A stretch of 64,000 nt of DNA, taken from contig NZ_CP053538.1 of assembly GCF_013137895.1 (NCBI RefSeq), forward strand, positions 4,433,001-4,497,000, in the 5' to 3' direction. This DNA is from Hymenobacter taeanensis (GTDB lineage Bacteria; Bacteroidota; Bacteroidia; Cytophagales; Hymenobacteraceae). A program made the translations under genes and the position numbers. The notes under the pieces are model-generated. The model ran no database searches. It saw only the letters and a program-made list of their open reading frames with translations, and was not told where the DNA came from. This document shows positions 2,250 through 15,498 of the stretch, in pieces. Numbering within the stretch: position 1 is the first letter of the stretch; each line of letters opens with the position of its first letter.

Positions 2250-2293
2250 AAAAATCGGGTCAGGGAGCTTCTAAGCTTTCTGACCCGATTTTT
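2250..2293. terminator. Bidirectional terminator between convergent genes
   Basis: A 14-bp stem (2250-2263 with 2280-2293) with A-run on one side and T-run on the other. It serves the small basic protein on the plus strand and overlaps the stop codon of the minus-strand nucleotidyltransferase. Confidence 0.85.
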
Positions 2294-3375
2294 TAGTGAG
2301 CGGCCTGCGCATACCATGCCCGGCGTACCTGAATCAGGAGGCGCTCAGCAGCTACCTGATCTGGAGCCGTGAGCAAGTGAGAGGTGGCAAAGGCGGCTTC
2401 TACCTGCTCCAACAGGGCCTCGGCCATCTGCAGCAGCTCTTCGTATTGAAACTCCCCTCGCCGAATTTGGAGCAGAAACTCCCGATCTGGCCGGCGCACT
2501 TGTAGCTGCCCCGTAAGGGCAATTTCGTGGGCCATGCGCAACAGCCGAAACACGTGCAGCATGTTCTTGGCATCATAATTTTTGCCGTGCTGCACGGTGT
2601 TTTGGTAGCGCTCGGCGTTGCGCTTCTGCACCCACTCGTGGTACTCCCGGTACACGCGGCAGTAGCTGCTATAGCCATTGCGGTTGAAGCTCAGGTAAGC
2701 CACTGGCTCCTCACCTTTAGGCACGGAGGTAAGCTGCACGTCCTGCGAGGTTTCGGCATCACGCACCAAGCCCCGGTACCCGAGCGTACCACTCGGGGAT
2801 GCATCCACGAACAGCGCGTACAGGTCCTGGAGGTGCGGCACGTTGGCCAGCCCGCACTGCTCTGCCGTAAGGTGTTGCTCAGCTAGCCACTGGCCTACCG
2901 GCTGGGCCCCGGCTCCTGCCGTAACGTAACAAAAGTCCAGCACCGACTTGCGGCCGGGTGGCTCGGGGTGGTTGATCTTCTTGTTGAGGCCCCGGGCTTT
3001 TCTGATTTGGGCCGCGGCGTACTCGGCAAAGCTTTGCAGACAGAGCTGAGAGAGAAAATCTTCGGGCCGAAAGGCTTCAAACAATGGGTGCCGGAAAATC
3101 ACACAGTCAGCGGGGGTACCGAGCAGCTCCAGCACCGTGGGGTTGTTTTTGAGCAAAAGCTCCACGAAGCGGCGCAGCTCATAAAACACCTCGTCGTTGG
3201 TTTCATTCGCTACCTGCGGTACGTACTCCAGGCCATAGAATTCAGCTTCGGGCAGAATGAATACGCCTTTCAGATCAGAATCAGAATGTGGTAGATTAGT
3301 ACCATACGCGCGGCTGCCGCTGATGGCTTCAAAAAGGATTAAGCCGCGCTGGCGCAGCTCGGTAATAGTGAGCAT
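2293..3375 (-). CDS. DNA polymerase beta-fold nucleotidyltransferase, COG3541/RlaP-like
   Basis: About 360 residues. The N-terminus carries the nucleotidyltransferase signature: GSRAYGTNLPHSDSDLKGVF, with G20-S21 for nucleotide binding and D32/D34 as the metal-binding acid pair. The rest is a long helical region with a NHPEPPGRKSVLDFCY segment. Length and layout fit the COG3541 group, which includes RlaP enzymes linked to RNA repair operons. Such enzymes are expected to add or remove nucleotides at RNA ends, but activity here is inference. Start at 3375 puts the signature at the usual distance; a longer frame reaching 3438 would overlap the divergent GNAT start. It lies downstream of the RNA repair genes, on the same strand. 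Confidence 0.8.
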   Translation of the reverse strand: MLTITELRQRGLILFEAISGSRAYGTNLPHSDSDLKGVFILPEAEFYGLEYVPQVANETNDEVFYELRRFVELLLKNNPTVLELLGTPADCVIFRHPLFEAFRPEDFLSQLCLQSFAEYAAAQIRKARGLNKKINHPEPPGRKSVLDFCYVTAGAGAQPVGQWLAEQHLTAEQCGLANVPHLQDLYALFVDASPSGTLGYRGLVRDAETSQDVQLTSVPKGEEPVAYLSFNRNGYSSYCRVYREYHEWVQKRNAERYQNTVQHGKNYDAKNMLHVFRLLRMAHEIALTGQLQVRRPDREFLLQIRRGEFQYEELLQMAEALLEQVEAAFATSHLLTAPDQVAAERLLIQVRRAWYAQAAH

Positions 3376-3406
3376 ATTTCTACGTAAGAGCAAGAACGGT
3401 ATCAGG

Positions 3407-3886
3407 ATGCAGAACCAAGTACAGTTACGGCAGACCAAACAAGCTGACCTAGAGCAGCTGTTTTACTTTCAGCTTGATGAAGAGGCAGGTTACCTGGCAG
3501 CCTTTATGCCGGCAAACCATACCAACAAAGAGGCCTACTTAGAAAAATACACCCGTTTTCTGCATGCCCCAACCATCAACATGCAGACCATTATGGTTGG
3601 GGAAACTATCGTGGGCAGTATCGCTAAGTTTATACTGGAAGGCGACGCCGAAATCACCTATTGGCTAGATCGGCGCTTTTGGGGTAAAGGCATTGCCACC
3701 TCCGCCCTGAGGAATTTTCTAGCTGTTGAAGGCACTAGGCCTATTCGGGGGCGAGTTGCCTTTGACAACGTGAGCTCACAGAAGGTGTTGGAAAACTGCG
3801 GGTTTGTGAAAATCAGCACCGACAAAGGATTCGCTAATGCGCGCCAGACCGAGATAGTTGAATTTATCTACCAGCTGAAACAGTAG
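3407..3886 (+). CDS. GNAT-family N-acetyltransferase (RimJ/RimL-like)
   Basis: 159 residues. The segment EITYWLDRRFWGKGIATSAL contains the acetyl-CoA-binding motif (R/Q-x-x-G-x-G/A), followed by GRVAFDNVSSQKVLENCGF, the N-S-x-x-v-x-e-x-x-G-F block of the RimJ/RimL group. Acetyl acceptor unknown. ATG at 3407 lies 31 bases from the divergent nucleotidyltransferase start, so the two promoters must overlap. Its 3' end overlaps by 23 bases the 3' end of the truncated nucleotidyltransferase on the other strand, and it is the only plus-strand gene in this locus. Confidence 0.85.
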   Translation: MQNQVQLRQTKQADLEQLFYFQLDEEAGYLAAFMPANHTNKEAYLEKYTRFLHAPTINMQTIMVGETIVGSIAKFILEGDAEITYWLDRRFWGKGIATSALRNFLAVEGTRPIRGRVAFDNVSSQKVLENCGFVKISTDKGFANARQTEIVEFIYQLKQ

Positions 3887-4190
3887 CAACCACCGGCGAC
3901 TGCAGCCACTCAAACACGGCAGCGTTAGAGCTGTGCAGCAGCTTCAGAGCCTTGCGTAACTCCCAACCAGCCAAGTCCAGCTCATCGTCAACGGGAAAAT
4001 TCAGGGTATCGGGGCCCTCATCCAGCGTTAGGTACCACTCGGCAGGATGCACATACAAGAAGCGCACATCATAGTCCGAATCCGGCGACGGGAAGCCCCA
4101 CGCCCGGCTCCCCGACTCGCAAGCGTACAGGATGCGGATATTGTGGGAGGTTTCAAACTGAATAAGAGCGGTTTGGATGCGAGTAAGCAT
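3864..4190 (-). CDS. Truncated COG3541-type nucleotidyltransferase (N-terminal catalytic half only)
   Basis: 108 residues covering only the nucleotidyltransferase core: G27-S28 in SGSRAWGFPSPDSDYDVRFL with D39/D41 as the acid pair, then DELDLAGWELRKALKLL and FEWLQSP. Family members usually continue for a further ~130 residues. Here homology stops after FEWLQSPVV and a short unrelated tail runs into the 3' end of the convergent GNAT gene. The catalytic residues are intact, so it may work as a minimal nucleotidyltransferase or be a decaying remnant. It is related to, but clearly different from, the full-length nucleotidyltransferase 0.5 kb downstream. Confidence 0.65.
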   Translation of the reverse strand: MLTRIQTALIQFETSHNIRILYACESGSRAWGFPSPDSDYDVRFLYVHPAEWYLTLDEGPDTLNFPVDDELDLAGWELRKALKLLHSSNAAVFEWLQSPVVATVSAGR

Positions 4191-4368
4191 AGAAATAGTA
4201 AGTCCTTACTGCAGATAGGAGCGCATAAGGTAGCGCTACACTACTGCTGTAATTGTAAGAGGTTGGTAAGCGGCGCAATTCCCGTATGCTCATTGCTGCC
4301 CCTGGCCTGGGACCTCAATAAGCTATAAAGGAGGCTAATGCAAATTTAATGAGGTGCCCTGCCATGGC

Positions 4369-5157
4369 TTAAAGCTCCGAATACTCAGTCGGGCGCAGGA
4401 ACACGATGTCGATGTGCGACACGTTGTTCTGATACTCGGGCAGGCTGGATAATTTCTTCCACTCCGGGTCGCTGCCGAAGGCTTTCCAATGCGCTTCCCT
4501 AGCTGGCATATTCGGGAAAGAGGTCATGTACATCAGGTTCGGCATTTTTGAGCCGAAGACCACTTCCCCATAGAAAATAGCATTAAAGTCGAGGCGGGAG
4601 AATAGCTTAATCTCCCCTCCGGCATTAAACATCTGCACTTTATTCCGGAATATCTTCTCGCTGGCCCCTTCATAGCTCCGCAGCTCATATACCCGTTCGT
4701 TTTTGGGCGCACTAAATCGCGGAGCAATTAGGTCGGTCATTTCCTCGAAGGGCTTGATAAAGACTGTTTCTAAGCGGCTGTAAGCCGGGTTATTATGGGC
4801 GGCGTTTACATAGGTGCCCCCAGCTGCGAGGAGCTTGTTGGTGGTTTCCTTGGTTACTTTCTCCCACTGCTTGAGCGAGCTATAAGGAGTCAAAACATAA
4901 ATCCGTCTATCAGCGGCCGTATCGTTACCGATGGGTTTGAACACGCCAATGGTAGCAATACCAGCGGCGTGCAGAGCCGGCATATACTGGAGTTGCAGGA
5001 AACTATCAATCACCGCTTCCTGCTGGCTGGTTTTGAGGTGGTACACCTTAAGCTCCAGATAAGCGGGCCGCCCCGCCGGGGTGGTTGCCGCAGCATGCCC
5101 ACTACCCAACCCACATGCGAAGAGAATAGTGATAATCACCAACTGAAGTTGTTTCAT
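4369..5157 (-). CDS. Secreted NIPSNAP-family protein
   Basis: 262 residues with an N-terminal signal peptide (hydrophobic to about residue 24), then two ferredoxin-like NIPSNAP repeats. The first starts at YLELKVYHLKTS (about residue 33) and the second at VYELRSYEGAS (about 160), with PNLMYMTSFPNMPARE typical of the second. Bacterial NIPSNAP proteins have no settled biochemical role; some act in oxidative or catabolic contexts. It sits 82 bases after pnkp on the same strand, so it may be part of that operon, though an exported protein has no obvious place in RNA repair. Confidence 0.85.
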   Translation of the reverse strand: MKQLQLVIITILFACGLGSGHAAATTPAGRPAYLELKVYHLKTSQQEAVIDSFLQLQYMPALHAAGIATIGVFKPIGNDTAADRRIYVLTPYSSLKQWEKVTKETTNKLLAAGGTYVNAAHNNPAYSRLETVFIKPFEEMTDLIAPRFSAPKNERVYELRSYEGASEKIFRNKVQMFNAGGEIKLFSRLDFNAIFYGEVVFGSKMPNLMYMTSFPNMPAREAHWKAFGSDPEWKKLSSLPEYQNNVSHIDIVFLRPTEYSEL

Positions 5158-5239
5158 GTACAGGACAGATTACTGAATAACGGTAAAGAAAGAACCCTCC
5201 AGTCAGTTGGCTGGCTTAACTCAGGGCGGGGCTTACTCC

Positions 5240-7867
5240 TTAAAGCCGCGGGTCTATGGCCTCACTTTCCAGCGCCAGCACCCCAAATACGCACTGGTGT
5301 ACCTCGCGCAGCGGCGCCCCGGCCACAAAGCGCTCCAGGCCTTCTACCCCAAGCGCAAATTCGCGGAGGGCGAGGTTGCGCTTACTTTTCACGGCCCGCT
5401 CCCGCAGGCGCTCCAGATTGCCAGGCAGCAGATAGTCGGGGCCATAGATGATGCGCAGGTACTCGCGGCCCCGGCACTTGAGGGCGGGCTGCACCAGGTT
5501 TTGCCGCCCTCCGGGAATAAAGTCATAGGGTTTCACTACCATACCTTCGCCTCCGGCTGCGGTGAGGTCAGTCCACCACTGGGTGGCAGCCTCCACATCC
5601 GCAACATCCTGGAGGTGCACTACGCGGTAGGGTGTGGCCCTGAGCAAAGCCTCGTCGGCGAGGCAAATGGCGCGCAGGGTTTCCATTTGCCAGGCGTGGT
5701 CCTTGTCGAAGTAAGTGCGGCCTTCGGTAGCGAGCAGGTGGAAAGGCGCCAGGCGCAGGTCAGCAAGACTCTCCACGGGCCAGCTGTAGCGCCGGTAAGC
5801 CTCGGCGTAGTGCTGAGCGGCGGTTTGGCGGGCGGTAGTGCGAGCCAGTAGCGCCTCTATTCCGTCTAGGCCACGTGCGGCCGCCTGGGTTAGTACGGCG
5901 GCAGCTTCGGGCAGAGCGGCCGTGGCCGCCGCCGCTACGGCTGCATACTGGTTTCTGATGAGTTCCTGCGCCTTGGCTGACCAGGGCAGTAGCTCGGCAT
6001 CAAGGCAGAGCCAATCGGTCTGGAATTTCTCCCAGAAGCCGGCCGTAGCCAGGGCCTCCTGCAAGCGCGTCAGAAAAGCCGCTTCTAGGCCACTATCGGT
6101 AAAGAAGTTGCGGCCGGTGCGGGTATAGCATTTGCCGGGGCCCTCGCCTACCACCCCGAAGCGGCGGCGCGCCGCATCTTCATCCTTGGCCAGCACCACA
6201 ACCACCCGGCTGCCCATGTGCTTTTCTTCGCACACCACCCGTTCCTGGCCTTGCCGACGGAAATAGTCGAAGGCTTCGGTGGGATGTTCCAGCAGATCGG
6301 GCAGGGCGCTGGTTTCTGAGGGGCTCATGGTGGGTGGCAGGTAAAGCAGCCACTTCGGGTTCAGGGCAAACCTACTCATCACCTCCAGGGCGGCGGTGGC
6401 ATTTTCCTCCCGAATGGTAACCGAAGGCAACAGGCGCGTTTTGATGATCTGCTTGCCGGTCACGTCCCTGATGTCCAGCAGGTCGTCGTGCTGTTGCTGG
6501 GCGGTGAGGCTACCAGCCGCAGATAAGCTACCAAGTGCGGCTTCCTGCTGCTGACGCAGGTAGTCGAGCGGGCGCACTGGCTCACAGTAGACCTGGGCGG
6601 CAGGCACAGCTACCAGTACTCGCTCAGGATACCGCAGGGCAGTGAGGTGACCACCAAATACGCAGCCGGTATCAATATCAATGGTATTATTAAGCCACTC
6701 AGCGTTAGGCACGGGCGTGTGACCGTACACCACCATGGCCCGGCCCCGATACTCAGAGGCCCAGTTGTAGCGCACCGGCAAGCCAAACTCGTCAATTTCT
6801 CCAGTCGTTTCGCCGAACAGCGCGAAGGCCCGCACGGCGCCGGAGCCGCGGCCCTGCATTTCCTCGCGCATACCCGCGTGGGCCACCACCAACTGGCCGC
6901 CATCCAGCACATAGTGGCTTACGAGCCCATCTAGGAACTGCCGCACCTGACTTTTGAACGTGTCCGATTCGGTGGCCAGCTGTGCTACCGTTTCGGCGAA
7001 GCCATGCTGCTCATTCACGCTTTTACCATTGAGGTAGCGCAGGAGCTTGATGTCGTGGTTGCCGGGCACGCAAAGCGCCAGGCCACTCTGCACCATGTGC
7101 ATCACCAGCCGTAGCACTTGCGGCGAGGCGGGCCCACGGTCAACCAGGTCGCCGAGGAACAGTGCCCGGCGGCCGGCTGGGGCCGTCACGCGCACGCCCA
7201 GGTCGCGGGCATCCTGCATGGGTACTTCCTCTACGCCATAGCCTAGGCCAGAGAGCAACTGCACCAGCTCCTGGTAGCAGCCGTGCACGTCACCAATGAT
7301 GTCGAAGGGCCCGGCATCCTGCTTGCGGTTGCTGTAGAGCGGATCGCGCACGATGGTTTGCACGGCGTCAATCTCCTCGGGGCCATGCAGGTGATATATG
7401 TGGCGAAAGCCTTCCTGCTTGAGCGTTTTGAGGCTGCGCCGAAGCTGCTGGCGCTGCTGAGGCACCACGTGGCGCCCCATGTGCTGACGCTCAGCACGCT
7501 GGCGGTTGCGGTCTTCGGCTAGGCGGTCGGGTACGTCGAGAATGATGGCAGTGGGCAGCACGTGGTAGTCGCGGGCCAGCTGCACGAGGGTTTTTCGGGC
7601 CTCGGGCTGTACGTTGGTAGCGTCCACCACCGTCAGCAAGCCCCGCTTAAGGCGTAGGCCTATCAGGTAATGCAGCAGGGCAAAGGCTTCGGGGGTGGCC
7701 GACTGGTCGTTTTCGTCATCGGCCACTAACGCCCGGCATTGGTCCGACGACACAATCTCAGTGGCCTTAAACAAGCGGCGGGCAAACGTACTCTTCCCTG
7801 CCCCTGAGGTGCCAATTAGCAGAACCAGGGAGAGCTCAGGGAGTTTGAGAGAGGTATATAGGGGCAT
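5240..7867 (-). CDS. pnkp: Bacterial polynucleotide kinase-phosphatase-ligase (RNA repair)
   Basis: 875 residues in three modules (residue numbers from a possible upstream Met at 7909; subtract 14). Kinase: P-loop GTSGAGKS at 33-40, then SSDQCR. Metallophosphatase: DIIGDVHG at 203-210, GDLVDRG at 253-259, GNHD at 283-286, VAHAGM and VVYGHTP. Adenylyltransferase/ligase: nucleotidyl lysine K563 in CEEKHMGSR, then EGMVVKP and LKCRGREYL. This is the architecture of Clostridium thermocellum Pnkp, which phosphorylates 5'-OH ends, removes 2',3'-cyclic phosphates and seals broken RNA together with Hen1. Start 7867 is preferred because family members begin a few residues before the LSLVLLIG strand. 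The partner hen1 lies two genes upstream. Confidence 0.95.
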   Translation of the reverse strand: MPLYTSLKLPELSLVLLIGTSGAGKSTFARRLFKATEIVSSDQCRALVADDENDQSATPEAFALLHYLIGLRLKRGLLTVVDATNVQPEARKTLVQLARDYHVLPTAIILDVPDRLAEDRNRQRAERQHMGRHVVPQQRQQLRRSLKTLKQEGFRHIYHLHGPEEIDAVQTIVRDPLYSNRKQDAGPFDIIGDVHGCYQELVQLLSGLGYGVEEVPMQDARDLGVRVTAPAGRRALFLGDLVDRGPASPQVLRLVMHMVQSGLALCVPGNHDIKLLRYLNGKSVNEQHGFAETVAQLATESDTFKSQVRQFLDGLVSHYVLDGGQLVVAHAGMREEMQGRGSGAVRAFALFGETTGEIDEFGLPVRYNWASEYRGRAMVVYGHTPVPNAEWLNNTIDIDTGCVFGGHLTALRYPERVLVAVPAAQVYCEPVRPLDYLRQQQEAALGSLSAAGSLTAQQQHDDLLDIRDVTGKQIIKTRLLPSVTIREENATAALEVMSRFALNPKWLLYLPPTMSPSETSALPDLLEHPTEAFDYFRRQGQERVVCEEKHMGSRVVVVLAKDEDAARRRFGVVGEGPGKCYTRTGRNFFTDSGLEAAFLTRLQEALATAGFWEKFQTDWLCLDAELLPWSAKAQELIRNQYAAVAAAATAALPEAAAVLTQAAARGLDGIEALLARTTARQTAAQHYAEAYRRYSWPVESLADLRLAPFHLLATEGRTYFDKDHAWQMETLRAICLADEALLRATPYRVVHLQDVADVEAATQWWTDLTAAGGEGMVVKPYDFIPGGRQNLVQPALKCRGREYLRIIYGPDYLLPGNLERLRERAVKSKRNLALREFALGVEGLERFVAGAPLREVHQCVFGVLALESEAIDPRL

Positions 7868-8010
7868 TATGTTGCTTGGAATACGACTAGCAGACGTAAG
7901 GTTAGACACAATTAACTGCTACCAGTATATCATATAGAGGTGGCTAAGCAAATTAACTTACTCACCTACCGAGATTTACTTTGCTACTAAACTGCCGTAG
8001 CACTCAAAAG

Positions 8011-10020
8011 CTACCGACCCGTCACCCGAAACTCTACGCGGCGGTTGAGCTGGCGAGTAGCTTCCTGGTCGTTGCTGGCTCTGGGCTCGGTGCCACCCAG
8101 GCCTAGGCCAGTAATGCGGCCTTCAGCAATGCCATGCTGCACCAGGTAGTTTTTTACGGTGGTCACGCGCTGTTCGCTGAGTGCCACGTTTTTCTCCGCT
8201 GGCCCCACGTTATCAGTATGGCCGCGCAGCTCAATGGTCAGGTTAGGGGTATCGGTGAGTAGCTGAAGCAGGTTGCGCAAGGCCGGGTACGACGAAGCCA
8301 GCAGCCGGGCACTCCCCTGCTCGAAGCGCACCCGCTCTAGCGGCATAGTAGCCCCCACATTGAGCGGGCGGAGCAGCACATCTTGCACGTACGGGCCGCG
8401 CAAGGCCGTGTACGTACTATCGAGTGGTGCGTAGCCCGCCACTTGCACGTGCGCAGCGGTGGCGCGGCCGGGCTCTACCGAAACGGAAAACTTGCCATCT
8501 GCTTGGAGTGGCACGGTGGTTTCGGCACCGGCCTGCCCCAAACGGAGGCTGGCCTGAGGCAGAGGCAGCAACGTAGCGGCATCCAGCAGTCGCCCGCGCC
8601 ACGTACCACTGGTAGGAACGGCCAGCACCACGGGAGCCTGCGGGCGAGGAAATACGGGTTTGGCCTGTTTCAGGCGAAAGGTGTTGCAACCCGCCAGATC
8701 AGTGTAGATACCCCGGCGCACCACCTCAGCCTGGCCACTGCTCAACTCCACTCGATACAGTGATTGGGGGCCCGCCAGGTATAAGCGCCGCTGACCATCG
8801 TCATCATCGTGAAACAGTAGGTCGCTGTAGCCGCCGCGCTCGGGTAGGCCAGTCAGAGCGGTCAGGGCCGGGGCGGGCTGCTGTGTTTCGAGGTTGATGC
8901 TCATCAGGGAGCCATCGGTACTGTACACTTGGTACAACGTGTGAGCCTCACCCAGACAAAAGTTACCGTGCGAGCCGGCTCCCTTAAAGCCAATGGTTGC
9001 GTAGTACGGTGCCTTCCGTTGCGGGTCAGTGGTCCAGACCACCGTCACGGCCCCACTGGCGGGGTCAATTTTAACCAGCTGCGCGGCGTCGGAGGTCATA
9101 AAGTACAGCTGGCCCTGCTCATCCGTAGCCGCCGATATCCAGGCATTTTCGGGGCCCTGAGCGGGTAGCTGCCAGGTGGTGTACTCCCCCTGCCTCGTTT
9201 TTGGGTTATAACGGTACACCAGCTCCGGCCTGTTGGTGGGCGCTTTGGTAACCGAATACAAGCAGTTATCAAAGCCCTTCGCCAAGGCGTATGACTGAAA
9301 CGGCAGCACCTGCTGGTGCACTTTTGGGCGCCCCGAAAAATCAGAGCCGGTAAACTCATGAATGGTCCGGCAATCATCTTCCCAAAGATCATTGTGCACG
9401 CGCAGAGCCGCAATGCCATATATCTTATCGTCGCACTGCGGAATTCTGAAAGTTGTGGGGGCAGGCAGGGGCGGCGCTAAAGGAGCCGGGCGGGGCTTGA
9501 AGCTGAACGACTCCAGCAGCTGCTCACCTTCATCCCGGAACCGGGCATCCTGCCGGATAGCCGCGCTGTATTCCAGTTGCCATTCGGTAGTGTCGCGCCA
9601 GAGGCGGCGGCCCAGTACCCGAATGCGAGACGCCGAAGCTGTCTCACCAGCGTACGTATAGTGGTATCTTACCTCAAGGTGGTTGCCCGTATATTGGTGC
9701 TTTACATAAAGCACGCGCACCTGGGGTAGCTGCAGAATAGTCTGCCACAGGGCATCCTGCTGGTTCTGGGCAAACGCAGCGCTTTGTTGAGGTGGCCTAG
9801 CGAACAAAGGCCGCTGCCCAAGCGTTACAACGGCCTGCTTAGGTGCCACTCCAGTAGTAAACAGCATCTCGCCAGTGGGGCGGGGTTGGCGCTGCCAGGT
9901 AGCCAGATAAATGAGCTGGTATTGTCCCGCTGAGTCGGCGTAAACCCGTCCGGGCACCAGCCCCTGCGCGTGGAGCTGCAGCCAGCAAAGCGTTAGGGCC
10001 AGCGTTAGCAACACCTTCAT
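8011..10020 (-). CDS. Secreted protein with propeller-like region and C-terminal OmpA domain
   Basis: 669 residues from Met at 10020, which begins a good signal peptide (MKVLLTLALTLCWLQLHAQG); a Met six residues earlier is possible. Residues ~200-440 read as repeated beta-propeller-like segments. A carboxypeptidase-regulatory-like beta domain follows at ~475-560 (GRLLDAATLLPLPQASLRL). The last ~105 residues are an OmpA/Pal peptidoglycan-binding domain: RVRFEQGSARLL, IELRGHTDNVG, NVALSEQRV and RRVEFRV. It probably anchors to peptidoglycan from the outer membrane. It lies between hen1 and pnkp with gaps of 88 and 143 bases, an unexpected neighbour for cytoplasmic RNA repair. Confidence 0.85.
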   Translation of the reverse strand: MKVLLTLALTLCWLQLHAQGLVPGRVYADSAGQYQLIYLATWQRQPRPTGEMLFTTGVAPKQAVVTLGQRPLFARPPQQSAAFAQNQQDALWQTILQLPQVRVLYVKHQYTGNHLEVRYHYTYAGETASASRIRVLGRRLWRDTTEWQLEYSAAIRQDARFRDEGEQLLESFSFKPRPAPLAPPLPAPTTFRIPQCDDKIYGIAALRVHNDLWEDDCRTIHEFTGSDFSGRPKVHQQVLPFQSYALAKGFDNCLYSVTKAPTNRPELVYRYNPKTRQGEYTTWQLPAQGPENAWISAATDEQGQLYFMTSDAAQLVKIDPASGAVTVVWTTDPQRKAPYYATIGFKGAGSHGNFCLGEAHTLYQVYSTDGSLMSINLETQQPAPALTALTGLPERGGYSDLLFHDDDDGQRRLYLAGPQSLYRVELSSGQAEVVRRGIYTDLAGCNTFRLKQAKPVFPRPQAPVVLAVPTSGTWRGRLLDAATLLPLPQASLRLGQAGAETTVPLQADGKFSVSVEPGRATAAHVQVAGYAPLDSTYTALRGPYVQDVLLRPLNVGATMPLERVRFEQGSARLLASSYPALRNLLQLLTDTPNLTIELRGHTDNVGPAEKNVALSEQRVTTVKNYLVQHGIAEGRITGLGLGGTEPRASNDQEATRQLNRRVEFRVTGR

Positions 10021-10108
10021 GAGCAAACCAGTCAGCAATGATATGCCCTAAAGATAAATAACCCGCCGCACCTTCCGGACTCTTAGCCGTTTATTTACCA
10101 CCTAAAGT

Positions 10109-11578
10109 TTACGCTCCGGCGGTAGCCCCCAGCTCAAACACTGCTAGCTGAGAGGGCGCACCCACCTCCGCAGCTTCGGGCCCCAGGGGTACCACGCGTA
10201 CGGTGTACCCGTGGCGCGCAGCTACACCGGCAGCCCACGCCGCAAACTGGGCACGCGTCCACTCAAAGCGGTGGTCAGCGTGGCGAAACTCACCGGCGGA
10301 AAGGGTTTCGTAGCGTTGATTATAGTCGGCGTTGGGGGTAGTAACAAGCACGGCGCCGGGGCGGGCCCGGGCAAAAACCACCTGCTCGAACGCGGTCAGC
10401 CGGCCTTCATCCAAGTGCTCAATTACTTCTACTACGGCCGCCGCATCATAACCCGCCAGGCGTGGGTCGTGGTACAGCAAAGAACCTTGGGTGAGCGTAA
10501 GCCGCTCACGCTGGCGCGGGGGCATCTCGGCTACGTGCAGCCGCTGCTGCGCCCGCTCCAGCTCCCGCCACGACACGTCCAGGGCCAGGATGTGCTCAAC
10601 CTGCGGAATCTTGAGCAGGCGGCGCACCAACTTGCCTTCGCCGCAGCCCAAGTCCAGCACGCGCTTGGCTCCGAGCCGGCTGATTTCTTCCGCTACGCGG
10701 TCCAGGCGGATGTCGTGCAGGTTCTGCTTTTCTCTGGTTGGCTGCGCACCTGGCTGATCTGCCGGTTCTGTTCCTGCGAATAGATCAACAGAACTTGCCC
10801 CCGTCAGACCCAGGCTGCCCGGTACTTCATCGGAAGGGGCTTCCTCTTCTCCCAGCAGGCGCTCGAGCGTGGGGTTCACGTACTCGGCAAAGCGCAGGTA
10901 GCGGCGCGTGATAAACTCCCGCTCTGGGTGCTGGGGCAGCCACTCGCCTCCTCTGTGCAGCAGCTTTTCGACTTCTGCCTCGTTAATCCAGTAATGCTTG
11001 TTGTTGTCGAGAACAGGAATCAGCACGTAGAGGTGGGTTAGCGAATCACGCAGGCGGATACCCGGGTGGCGCAGCCGCAACGTGAAGTAGCGGCTGTTGC
11101 CCCACTCCGGTACGGTTGGGTCCAGCGGGTGGGCCTCGGTTTCTACCGTGTACCCCAGCGGCTGAAACAGGCGCTCCAGCTGTTCTGCAGTAGCCGCCGG
11201 CATTACGGCCACGGTTGCTTCAAGCGGAAGCAGCACCTCCGGCAGCTCAGGCCGGTCCTTACAGGTGCCGTTCATAGCTGTGTTAAAGGCCTTAGCTAGG
11301 GCCGAGCTCAGGAAGGAGGAAGCCACGTAGGGCCGGTCGTTCACGTATTGCTCCAGCGCGAAGCCATCACCGGCAGGGCCGCGCTGGTTCCGTACGAGCG
11401 CTATGGGGTCTATGTCGAGTAGGAGCGCCGCGGTGCAGCGCTCGGGGGTAGCTTCAGGATAGAAAATGTGGGCCTGCCCGGCAGTTATTTCCAGCGTTTG
11501 AAGCCGGGCAGGATTCTTATGCAGCAGAAAGCCCAAGTCGGTGGCGGGCTGATGGGTAGTGGTAATGGTAAGCAGCAT
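10109..11578 (-). CDS. hen1: Hen1: 3'-terminal RNA ribose 2'-O-methyltransferase
   Basis: 489 residues. The N-terminal half starts with LLTITTTHQPATDLGFLLHK, a hallmark of bacterial Hen1, and continues with AHIFYPEA and DRPYVASSFLS. The C-terminal methyltransferase has the SAM motif VLDLGCGEGKLVRRLL (~307-322). The metal-binding set is E384, E387, H388 (VVEVIEHLD) and H433 (FRHADHRFEW); the spacing equals that of C. thermocellum Hen1. The enzyme methylates the 2'-OH of the 3' end at a break before Pnkp ligates, protecting the repaired site from re-cleavage. Start 11578 is chosen because homologues begin at this Met; a longer frame reaches 11665. First gene of the minus-strand locus. Confidence 0.95.
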   Translation of the reverse strand: MLLTITTTHQPATDLGFLLHKNPARLQTLEITAGQAHIFYPEATPERCTAALLLDIDPIALVRNQRGPAGDGFALEQYVNDRPYVASSFLSSALAKAFNTAMNGTCKDRPELPEVLLPLEATVAVMPAATAEQLERLFQPLGYTVETEAHPLDPTVPEWGNSRYFTLRLRHPGIRLRDSLTHLYVLIPVLDNNKHYWINEAEVEKLLHRGGEWLPQHPEREFITRRYLRFAEYVNPTLERLLGEEEAPSDEVPGSLGLTGASSVDLFAGTEPADQPGAQPTREKQNLHDIRLDRVAEEISRLGAKRVLDLGCGEGKLVRRLLKIPQVEHILALDVSWRELERAQQRLHVAEMPPRQRERLTLTQGSLLYHDPRLAGYDAAAVVEVIEHLDEGRLTAFEQVVFARARPGAVLVTTPNADYNQRYETLSAGEFRHADHRFEWTRAQFAAWAAGVAARHGYTVRVVPLGPEAAEVGAPSQLAVFELGATAGA

Positions 11579-13551: not shown

Positions 13552-15498
13552 ATGCATAAGCCTCATATTAAATTTTCTATTCCCCTAGCTCTTTTTAGCC
13601 TTGCCGTTACTTGGGTAAGCTGTCAACGCCCCTCTCCTAGCCTTGTACAAGCTCCGCCGACGAGCCCCGCTGCGCAAGCAATGCAACAGTATCAGCATGA
13701 CCTCACGCAACTAGACTCTGCAGTAGCTCTGTTGAACCGAGCCGTTGCGCAAAAGCAACCGATGGAAAAACAGCGGGGGGCTTTTCTGGCCGCTCGGCGC
13801 GCCTGGAAACGCACGGAAATGCTGGCGGAATATTATAGCCCTTCCACAGCTAAGCTTCTTAATGGACCGGCCCTGGGTGAGGTAGAGGAATTTGACCAGC
13901 AGCAACGCGTGCACGCACCGGAGGGCCTGCAAGTCCTGGAAACCTACTTTTACCCCAAGGCCTATCCCCCCGGGCAACAAGGGCAAGTGCTGGAGCAGCT
14001 AGCTTTTGTGCGTAGTAGCCTACTGAGCCTACATCACGCCGCCGAAACGATTTCAACCACCGATAAGCATCTCTTCGATGCGGCTCGACTGGAAGTATTC
14101 AGAGTAATGACCCTGGGTATTTCGGGGTTTGACACGCCAGCCTCACCGGGTACCGTGCCAGAAGCCGCTGAAGCCTTGGCCGCAGTGCAGGCCACCCTGG
14201 CCCCCTACCGGCCGCAACTGCTGGCGCGGCAGCCCCACCTCGCCACCCGCCTCGACAGCACCTTTCGCGCCATTCAGACATTTCTAGGCCACCACCCCGA
14301 TGCGGCAAATTTTGACCGGCTCCGGTTTTTGGTGGCCTATGCCAACCCGCTCAGCCAGCAGCTCTGGGCGGCGCAACAGGCTCTCGGCATTCCGGCCTTC
14401 AAGGAGGTGCGCGCCCTTCGGCCTGATGCGGCGTCCTTATTTCAAGCAGATGCGTTTGAAGTTGCTGCTTTCGCTGCCAACACCACTGCACGCCCCACCC
14501 AGCAACAAATTAACCTGGGCCGGCAGCTGTTTTTTGATCCGGTGCTTTCCGGCAACGGCAGCAGGAGTTGTGCCAGCTGCCACCACCCCACGCGGGCTTT
14601 CACCGATGGGCAGGCCAAGAGTGTGGCTTTTGGAGGGCGCGGTCAGGTAGCCCGGAATGCTCCCACGCTGTTAAACGCCGCGCTGCAGCGCAATCAGTTT
14701 CATGATGGCCGCGTAAGCTTCTTAGAGGATCAGGCCGCCGCTGTAGTAGCTAACCCTACCGAAATGCATGGCTCGTTAGCGGTTGTGGCGCGGCTGCTAA
14801 CGCGTAATTCAAACTACCGCAGGGCATTTGCGGCTGCCTTTGCCGCGGCGCCCGATTCGGGGGTGCAGGAGGACCAAGTAAAATCGGCGCTGGCCGCCTA
14901 TCTCCGTTCCCTTATCAGCCTCAACTCGCCTTTTGATACGTATATGCGCGGGGAACCAGAGGCCCTTGGCGCAGCAGCTCAACGAGGAGCCAATGTATTT
15001 TTGGGTAAAGCCAAATGCGCCACCTGTCACTTCCTACCCTTGTTCAATGGTACAGTACCACCTGGCTTCGAACGCTCTGAAGCGGAAGTGCTGGGCACTC
15101 CTGCTCAAGCCAGCCTCCACCCCCGCACCCTCGATCGGGACCTGGGCCGGGGCGGGGCCACGGGCATCCGGTGGCAGCAGCATGCTTTTAAAACTCCAAC
15201 GCTGCGTAATGTGGCTGTCACGGCTCCCTACATGCACAATGGGGCCTACCGCAGCCTTGAAGCAGTCGTTGACTTCTACAACCAGGGAGGAGGCGCAGCC
15301 CTGGGCCTGCGGGTGCCCAATCAAACGCTTCCCTCCGATAAGCTCCACCTCACTACTCAAGAAAAGCACGACCTGATAACCTTCCTCCAAGCCCTCACTG
15401 ATACCACTGGTCTAGGCCACTCCGCACCTCGCTCACTCCCTCAATTTCCCACTGAGTTATCCTGGCTGAATCAGCGCAAAGTGGGCGGCCGATATTGA
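13552..15498 (+). CDS. Imelysin-like domain fused to di-heme cytochrome c peroxidase
   Basis: 648 residues with a lipoprotein-type signal (WVSC, Cys24). Residues ~40-300 are all-helical and resemble imelysin/M75-type iron-regulated proteins (FLAARRAWKRTEMLAEYYSP, NGPALGEVEEFD). The second half is a MauG/CcpA-like di-heme peroxidase with haem motifs CASCH (340-344) and CATCH (489-493), LGRQLFFDPVLSGNGS, FKTPTLRNVAVTAPYMHNG and LTTQEKHDLITFL. The peroxidase half reduces peroxide or oxidises partner proteins in the periplasm. Such fusions are seen in Bacteroidota, but the role of the helical half is open. It follows the PhoX-like gene after a terminator, so it is transcribed separately. Confidence 0.85.
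   Translation: MHKPHIKFSIPLALFSLAVTWVSCQRPSPSLVQAPPTSPAAQAMQQYQHDLTQLDSAVALLNRAVAQKQPMEKQRGAFLAARRAWKRTEMLAEYYSPSTAKLLNGPALGEVEEFDQQQRVHAPEGLQVLETYFYPKAYPPGQQGQVLEQLAFVRSSLLSLHHAAETISTTDKHLFDAARLEVFRVMTLGISGFDTPASPGTVPEAAEALAAVQATLAPYRPQLLARQPHLATRLDSTFRAIQTFLGHHPDAANFDRLRFLVAYANPLSQQLWAAQQALGIPAFKEVRALRPDAASLFQADAFEVAAFAANTTARPTQQQINLGRQLFFDPVLSGNGSRSCASCHHPTRAFTDGQAKSVAFGGRGQVARNAPTLLNAALQRNQFHDGRVSFLEDQAAAVVANPTEMHGSLAVVARLLTRNSNYRRAFAAAFAAAPDSGVQEDQVKSALAAYLRSLISLNSPFDTYMRGEPEALGAAAQRGANVFLGKAKCATCHFLPLFNGTVPPGFERSEAEVLGTPAQASLHPRTLDRDLGRGGATGIRWQQHAFKTPTLRNVAVTAPYMHNGAYRSLEAVVDFYNQGGGAALGLRVPNQTLPSDKLHLTTQEKHDLITFLQALTDTTGLGHSAPRSLPQFPTELSWLNQRKVGGRY

Follow-up and report, generated by a model that had tools for sequence, protein, structure and literature searches.

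Does a row of minus-strand genes around hen1 and pnkp in the bacterium Hymenobacter taeanensis form one RNA-repair unit, and which of its members are likely to take part in repair? The question concerns a stretch of 64,000 nucleotides (contig NZ_CP053538.1, positions 4,433,001 to 4,497,000 of the forward strand; hereafter the window) from a genome of 4.88 Mb in one contig, with its closest protein matches in Hymenobacter, for which a preliminary description had proposed a locus of Hen1, Pnkp and two nucleotidyltransferases, possibly joined by the exported proteins encoded in between. The locus is real, conserved and mostly known. It probably belongs to the known Hen1-Pnkp RNA repair system, in a Hymenobacter version accompanied as usual by members of the RlaP family (PF10127); these are of two types here, RlaP-S and RlaP-L, only the latter being likely to act. 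New details are the truncation of RlaP-S, the pairing of RlaP-S and RlaP-L (S and L below) across ligase types and an opened-up gene order in Hymenobacter. The features are the following (aa, amino acids).

10109..11578, minus strand: hen1, 3'-terminal RNA ribose 2'-O-methyltransferase (TIGR04074, PF12623 Hen1_L, signature residues)
8011..10038, minus strand: OmpA-domain exported protein, a genus-level neighbour, probably outside the repair unit (PF00691, 67 bits)
5240..7909, minus strand: pnkp, kinase/phosphatase/ligase (TIGR04075; PF16542, PF13671, PF00149)
4369..5157, minus strand: NIPSNAP-domain protein, a genus-level neighbour (PF07978, 51.7 bits)
3864..4190, minus strand: RlaP-S remnant of 108 aa, reduced to the N-terminal nucleotidyltransferase core (PF10127, 160 bits)
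3879..3889, no strand: junction of the deletion of ~550 bp in RlaP-S (comparison with G119 and H. fodinae)
about 3407..3886, plus strand: GNAT acetyltransferase, a neighbour convergent with the RlaP-S remnant (PF13302, 57 bits)
2293..3375, minus strand: RlaP-L of 360 aa, an intact RNA-ligase-associated nucleotidyltransferase of the Pol-beta fold, long type (PF10127, 76 bits)

Hen1 and Pnkp had been described as intact with all signature residues, and both family scores and a check of the residues confirm this. Hen1 reaches 658.7 bits against TIGR04074 (cut-off 340) and 354.8 bits against PF12623; counted from the ATG at 11578 it has 489 aa (the open reading frame, ORF, could reach 11665), and it combines the EXXEH...H methyltransferase site (E384, E387, H388 and H433) with a Pnkp-associating N-domain. 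Pnkp (889 aa; 1374.8 bits over the full TIGR04075 model, cut-off 750) unites a kinase P-loop, a phosphatase and a ligase domain in one protein, with intact motifs in each: the P-loop at 33, the phosphatase positions 207, 253, 283 and 344, and K563 within KHMGS. Related solved structures exist for Hen1 (4dqz, 3jwg) and Pnkp (4drf, 3ty8, 4j6o, 4gp6), and the two genes are linked on the same strand with OmpA as the single gene between them. A separate observation is that Hen1 carries 40 amino-acid changes on the window branch versus 12 on the sister branch (26 unresolved; compared with L089 and L090), a pattern that may reflect either relaxed selection or recombination; changes are even in Pnkp (12 versus 14) and likewise in RlaP-L (9 versus 7).

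The two RlaP genes

Both nucleotidyltransferases match PF10127 above its curated cut-off of 23 bits, and they are the only two RlaP matches in the genome. The earlier observation of two nucleotidyltransferase genes holds, but one of them is only a remnant. RlaP-L aligns with profile positions 18-139 only and has a long extra region. Its start is likely 3375 and not 3438, because the ATG at 3375 aligns with relatives. The catalytic positions of the Pol-beta fold (G20, S21, D32, D34 and D61) are kept, the third acid having been assigned by eye from an alignment with RlaP-S; in an alignment of 27 RlaP-L rows, one of which (L065) is grouped with S by the tree described below, the residue is D in 24 rows, E in two and Q in one (L053, with an adjacent E). 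The ratio of nonsynonymous to synonymous substitution rates (dN/dS) against the nearest relative is 0.035. The structure model of RlaP-L is only fair (mean predicted local distance difference test score, pLDDT, 73.3) and gave no fold match at E 0.001 or better; a sequence search of solved structures with RlaP likewise found no meaningful relative.

RlaP-S scores higher against the profile, but covers only positions 2-102 of 249. A full-length RlaP has about 250 aa and comprises a nucleotidyltransferase core and a C-terminal helical domain, the second of which is wanting in 3864-4190. In comparison with H. fodinae (L001; L090 is of the same species) and with G119 (L089), the nearest relative, about 550 bp are absent, which comprise the RlaP-S codons from ~102 to the end and the interval between RlaP-S and the stop of GNAT, with the junction near 3889/3879. 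Judged from these alignments, RlaP-S is a deletion remnant, its C-terminal helical half having been lost in the window strain and kept by the two near relatives. The locus therefore does not encode two whole nucleotidyltransferases, as had been assumed, and only RlaP-L likely acts with Hen1-Pnkp.

Could the remnant still work as a stand-alone minimal nucleotidyltransferase core (MNT-like), perhaps with RlaP-L supplying the helical part? It retains all catalytic residues (G27, S28, D39, D41 and D72) and has no stop in the 101 shared codons. Moreover, in the predicted H. fodinae fold (mean pLDDT 92.5; strand at 101-104, helices from 108) the cut lies where the nucleotidyltransferase core passes into the helical half, and a protein search found in Hymenobacter sp. 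NBH84 (4.78-Mb contig) a 103-aa form of RlaP-S that ends at nearly the same residue, which we infer from its sequence to be an independent loss. On the other side, among the 91 RlaP-S matches in the genus list 89 extend at least to profile position 223, and the two short or broken exceptions (the window genome and G028, with a stop inside its match) are as few as expected for sporadic decay. The remnant has also undergone 6 amino-acid changes on the window branch compared with 2 on the sister branch, which points weakly to relaxation, and a search for short proteins (best 120 of 1394 matches) revealed no maintained short lineage, many of the matches lying on short contigs and being probably fragments. 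Its dN/dS of 0.059 against the nearest relative (101 codons) does not distinguish selection before from selection after the deletion. On balance a functional minimal core is unlikely, and we retain the interpretation of a deletion remnant beside an intact RlaP-L.

A further short protein, P0251 (156 aa, on an 18-kb contig), apparently joins an RlaP-S N-terminal core to an RlaP-L C-terminal end when inspected by eye, and looks like the product of a deletion spanning both RlaP genes.

The two types are old. In a maximum-likelihood tree of 24 chosen sequences (midpoint root for drawing only), S and L form separate groups with support of 100/99 and 99/97, and the side-by-side copies of Acidobacteriota and Planctomycetota (L043, L053, L063) fall one into the S group and one into the L group. 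By their place in this tree, the S and L types are paralogues of long standing, each forming its own clade; both keep the catalytic positions of the Pol-beta fold, and they are usually encoded side by side.

RlaP with Pnkp and with other ligases

The preliminary description suggested looking for a conserved neighbourhood of Hen1, Pnkp and nucleotidyltransferase in related genomes, and the comparison of gene order found it. In a genus set of 120 genomes including that of the window (a few only 81-83% complete), RlaP occurs in 93, and matches above the respective cut-offs were obtained for Pnkp in 93 and for Hen1 in 92. When partial or broken Pnkp genes are counted as present, 88 genomes hold both RlaP and Pnkp, 8 only Pnkp, 5 only RlaP and 19 neither (Fisher p 1.1e-11). 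The two lie on one contig in 77 of the 87 genus genomes with coordinates for both, and in 73 of these 77 RlaP-S is found no more than 30 kb from Pnkp, in every case downstream and on the same strand. Among the matches listed (58 genomes), 57 have S and L on the same strand within 5 kb of each other, and one has them at a distance of 5.7 kb. Outside the Hymenobacter group, RlaP lies near Pnkp in 10 of 60 loci with many short flanks (L022, L023, L026, L028, L029, L034, L043, L053, L063 and L065), 19 Hymenobacter loci and one from Solirubrum having been set aside. In the window itself, RlaP adjoins an RNA ligase, namely the ligase domain of Pnkp in the same cluster. The link between these nucleotidyltransferases and RNA repair is not new, since Pfam names PF10127 "RlaP, RNA repair pathway DNA polymerase beta family".

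Pnkp appears broken or split in several genomes of the genus set (G010, G048, G065, G083, G092), and 24 of the 120, a few of them incomplete, have no substantial Pnkp match; to judge from these genes, the Hen1-Pnkp system seems to have been lost repeatedly in the genus.

Several observations weigh against a close tie of RlaP to Hen1-Pnkp. The p-value above is inflated by shared ancestry because most counts lie inside one genus, RlaP-S is far from Pnkp in four same-contig genomes (G055, G058, G059, G082), and three genomes (G022, G066, G069; loci L106, L107, L108) keep both RlaP genes without Hen1 and Pnkp. In a phylum sample of 247 Bacteroidota genomes with a completeness of 90% or more, where S and L were told apart by the span of the profile match and the length of the protein, RlaP occurs in 17, of which 13 have S and L close together, four S only and none L only; 10 of the 13 pair-bearing genomes lack Pnkp and three have it. 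The limited part of the literature searched yielded no biochemical result on RlaP, which does not show that there is none. Conversely, one genome of the sample (G250) has Pnkp without RlaP. Because pairs persist without Pnkp in both the genus and the phylum sample, RlaP is not tied to the Pnkp ligase.

Other ligases are found instead. We examined 11 of the 13 pair loci (those of the window and of G005 being left out) and the four S-only loci. An RtcB homologue lies near the S+L pair in five of the 11, identified by Pfam in L113 and by phmmer (105-568 bits) in L110, L115, L116 and L118; a rough estimate, which assumes two genes per 4 Mb and a stretch of 16 kb, puts the chance of RtcB in five of 13 at p ~4e-8. 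Hen1-like, Pnkp-ligase-like and kinase/phosphatase genes accompany the pair in L111 and L117; L114 has only a kinase/phosphatase gene and L109 has Pnkp-Hen1, while L112 (a 7.6-kb contig), L119 and the four S-only loci gave no match to the RtcB, Hen1, ligase or kinase/phosphatase queries. RtcB is present in all 12 genus genomes searched, and ATP-grasp RNA ligases of PF09414 in none of these 12. An abstract of 2016 by Burroughs and Aravind reportedly introduces a new nucleotidyltransferase associating with diverse ligases, so the diversity of ligases around RlaP is likely already in print. Two further features of these loci may be recorded: an AAA ATPase with AriA/OLD-like model matches, resembling defence ATPases, between RlaP-S and RlaP-L (L111:6880-8862, L117:7978-9906), and WYL-type regulator genes on the opposite strand near the repair genes of L109, L110 and L115.

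Eleven further genomes, reached through their Pnkp loci, were scored for their S and L content. Five have both types (L032, L079, L043, L053, L063), L027 combines L with a divergent second copy and L058 has neither; L only was found in L023, a metagenome-assembled genome (MAG), and L029 (Chitinophaga qingshengii), S only in the MAGs L028 and L065. An obligatory S+L pair was accordingly rejected. In L023 and L029 the L-type gene is the sole RlaP found and lies beside Hen1/Pnkp; the L-only state of the window therefore has parallels.

A different role would follow if the RlaP proteins transferred nucleotides to make signals or to modify proteins, and so regulated repair or defence, instead of acting as RNA-end polymerases. 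In a structural comparison RlaP-S comes closest to HalB of the Hailong system and to aminoglycoside nucleotidyltransferases (matches to 20 PDB chains, E 1e-4 to 1e-3), no CCA-adding enzyme is among the best 50, and the ATPase mentioned above is inserted in two loci outside Hymenobacter. These matches are distant, however (TM score 0.3-0.5 over the query), and the frequent companions of RlaP are ligases and end-healing enzymes of three kinds, so that we consider a regulatory role improbable and regard RlaP as a companion of RNA repair.

Neighbouring genes and gene order

The exported proteins had been considered as possible parts of the unit. We mapped 29 loci (28 relatives and the window, some stretches clipped), in which gene counts are lower bounds because the gene caller drops genes under longer overlapping ORFs; RlaP-S itself is missing from several maps. 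OmpA occurs in 20 of the 29 and NIPSNAP, whose N-terminus resembles a signal peptide by eye, in 12 (window included). A single functional operon of all minus-strand genes, in which OmpA and NIPSNAP would belong to RNA repair, would agree with their common strand, with the short intergenic gaps (Hen1-OmpA 70 bp, OmpA-Pnkp 101 bp, Pnkp-NIPSNAP 82 bp) and with the frequency of OmpA. Yet in H. fodinae antisense ORFs interrupt both the Hen1-OmpA and the OmpA-Pnkp interval, and OmpA persists beside RlaP in the three genus genomes without Hen1 and Pnkp (L106-L108). Furthermore, Hen1 and Pnkp mostly abut outside the Hymenobacter group, with a gap of at most 150 bp in 34 of 54 loci versus 2 of 19 within it, where the gap exceeds 500 bp in 16 of 19 (0.9-8.2 kb). 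An operon-wide unit with the exported proteins was rejected on this gene order, and we regard it as very improbable. As gaps above 500 bp also occur in 18 of the 54 outside loci, the opened-up order is not unique to the genus.

The minus-strand row of the preliminary description comprises Hen1, OmpA, Pnkp, NIPSNAP and both RlaP genes, but is broken by the plus-strand GNAT gene, which separates RlaP-L from the RlaP-S remnant and shares 23 bp with the 3' end of the remnant; the DNA from GNAT into RlaP-L is continuously matched in nine other genus genomes. The row is most simply read, on gene order, as an opened-up repair locus with other genes between. In the same comparison OmpA, NIPSNAP and GNAT appear as neighbours and not as parts, OmpA and NIPSNAP being patchy, genus-level and separable. 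That Hen1 and Pnkp are mostly pulled apart in Hymenobacter also cautions against reading a same-strand row as a functional unit.

A promoter scan gave 5 matches versus 4.8 in shuffles and a terminator scan 17 versus 13.3, both close to the shuffled background; a Bacteroidota-type promoter pattern matched once, inside the Pnkp coding region. These scans carry little information on transcription. A Pfam scan of ten representatives of recurrent genes in Hymenobacter loci found no ribotoxin-like gene among them: they comprise an M28 peptidase, an S41 peptidase, DUF5991, a TMEM175-type channel, an epimerase-like, a HEAT/Arm-repeat and a GldB-like protein and three unmatched ones. The M28-family peptidase gene (~570 aa, opposite strand; e.g. 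L105:10099-11820) is present in 20 of the 29 mapped loci, mostly between Pnkp and RlaP-S, and is absent from the window locus. Elsewhere in the window, 13552-15498 (plus strand) encodes a protein of 648 aa with two CxxCH motifs, which by its sequence resembles a di-haem cytochrome c peroxidase.

Proposed pathway and known systems

The pathway would begin with an RNA cut by a ribotoxin, in which Pnkp would phosphorylate the 5' end and clear the 3' phosphate. RlaP would then re-add nucleotides lost from the 3' end, Hen1 would methylate the 3'-terminal 2'-OH, and the ligase domain of Pnkp, which needs the N-terminal domain of Hen1, would seal the break into a joint that resists recutting. The Pnkp and Hen1 steps are established for relatives, and the intact motifs suggest that they also operate here: according to PMC4411300, both RNA ends are healed by Pnkp-Hen1, the terminal 2'-OH receives its methyl group from Hen1, whose N-domain also unlocks the ligase, and a joint methylated in this way withstands the same ribotoxin. 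The RlaP step is a published prediction, according to which RlaP restores nucleotides lost before ligation, as after RloC (PMC7824862 section 3.4.9, citing Burroughs & Aravind 2016); RloC excises the wobble nucleotide, according to PMC2610378. The earlier suggestion that 3'-end nucleotides are added before Pnkp seals agrees with the prediction for RlaP.

It is possible, although we hold it only tentatively, that RlaP-S and RlaP-L make up an ancient module of two components that restores RNA ends, beside which the ligase changes (Pnkp-Hen1, the Hen1/ligase/kinase set, or RtcB). The two may form a two-subunit enzyme, or each may deal with a different kind of lost nucleotide. If such a module exists, the window strain and apparently NBH84 are natural tests of an S subunit reduced to its catalytic core, and if the pair serves different ligases, the function of RlaP is testable on RNA ends from wobble-excising nucleases such as RloC. 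The natural truncation of RlaP-S also provides a ready-made partial-loss strain.

Among known systems, the locus resembles the bacterial Pnkp-Hen1 RNA repair complex in that both genes are intact with signature motifs and each part has solved relatives; it differs in that the genes mostly abut elsewhere and are 2.2 kb apart in the window. The likeness to RlaP lies in two genes above the PF10127 cut-off near an RNA ligase, whereas the window departs from the family in having two divergent paralogues, a partial profile match of RlaP-L and a truncated RlaP-S. The Pnkp1-Rnl-Hen1 system of Capnocytophaga gingivalis, as described in PMC4411300, has the same four activities, but there the ligase and the kinase-phosphatase are separate proteins, in contrast to their fusion in the Pnkp of the window; L111 and L117, with their Hen1-like/ligase-like/kinase-phosphatase set and RlaP pair, are only candidate members of that system. 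Finally, in loci of the RtcB RNA ligase type this enzyme accompanies the S+L pair, as in the five of 11 pair loci reported above, whereas the RtcB gene of the window genome lies ~300 kb from the locus.

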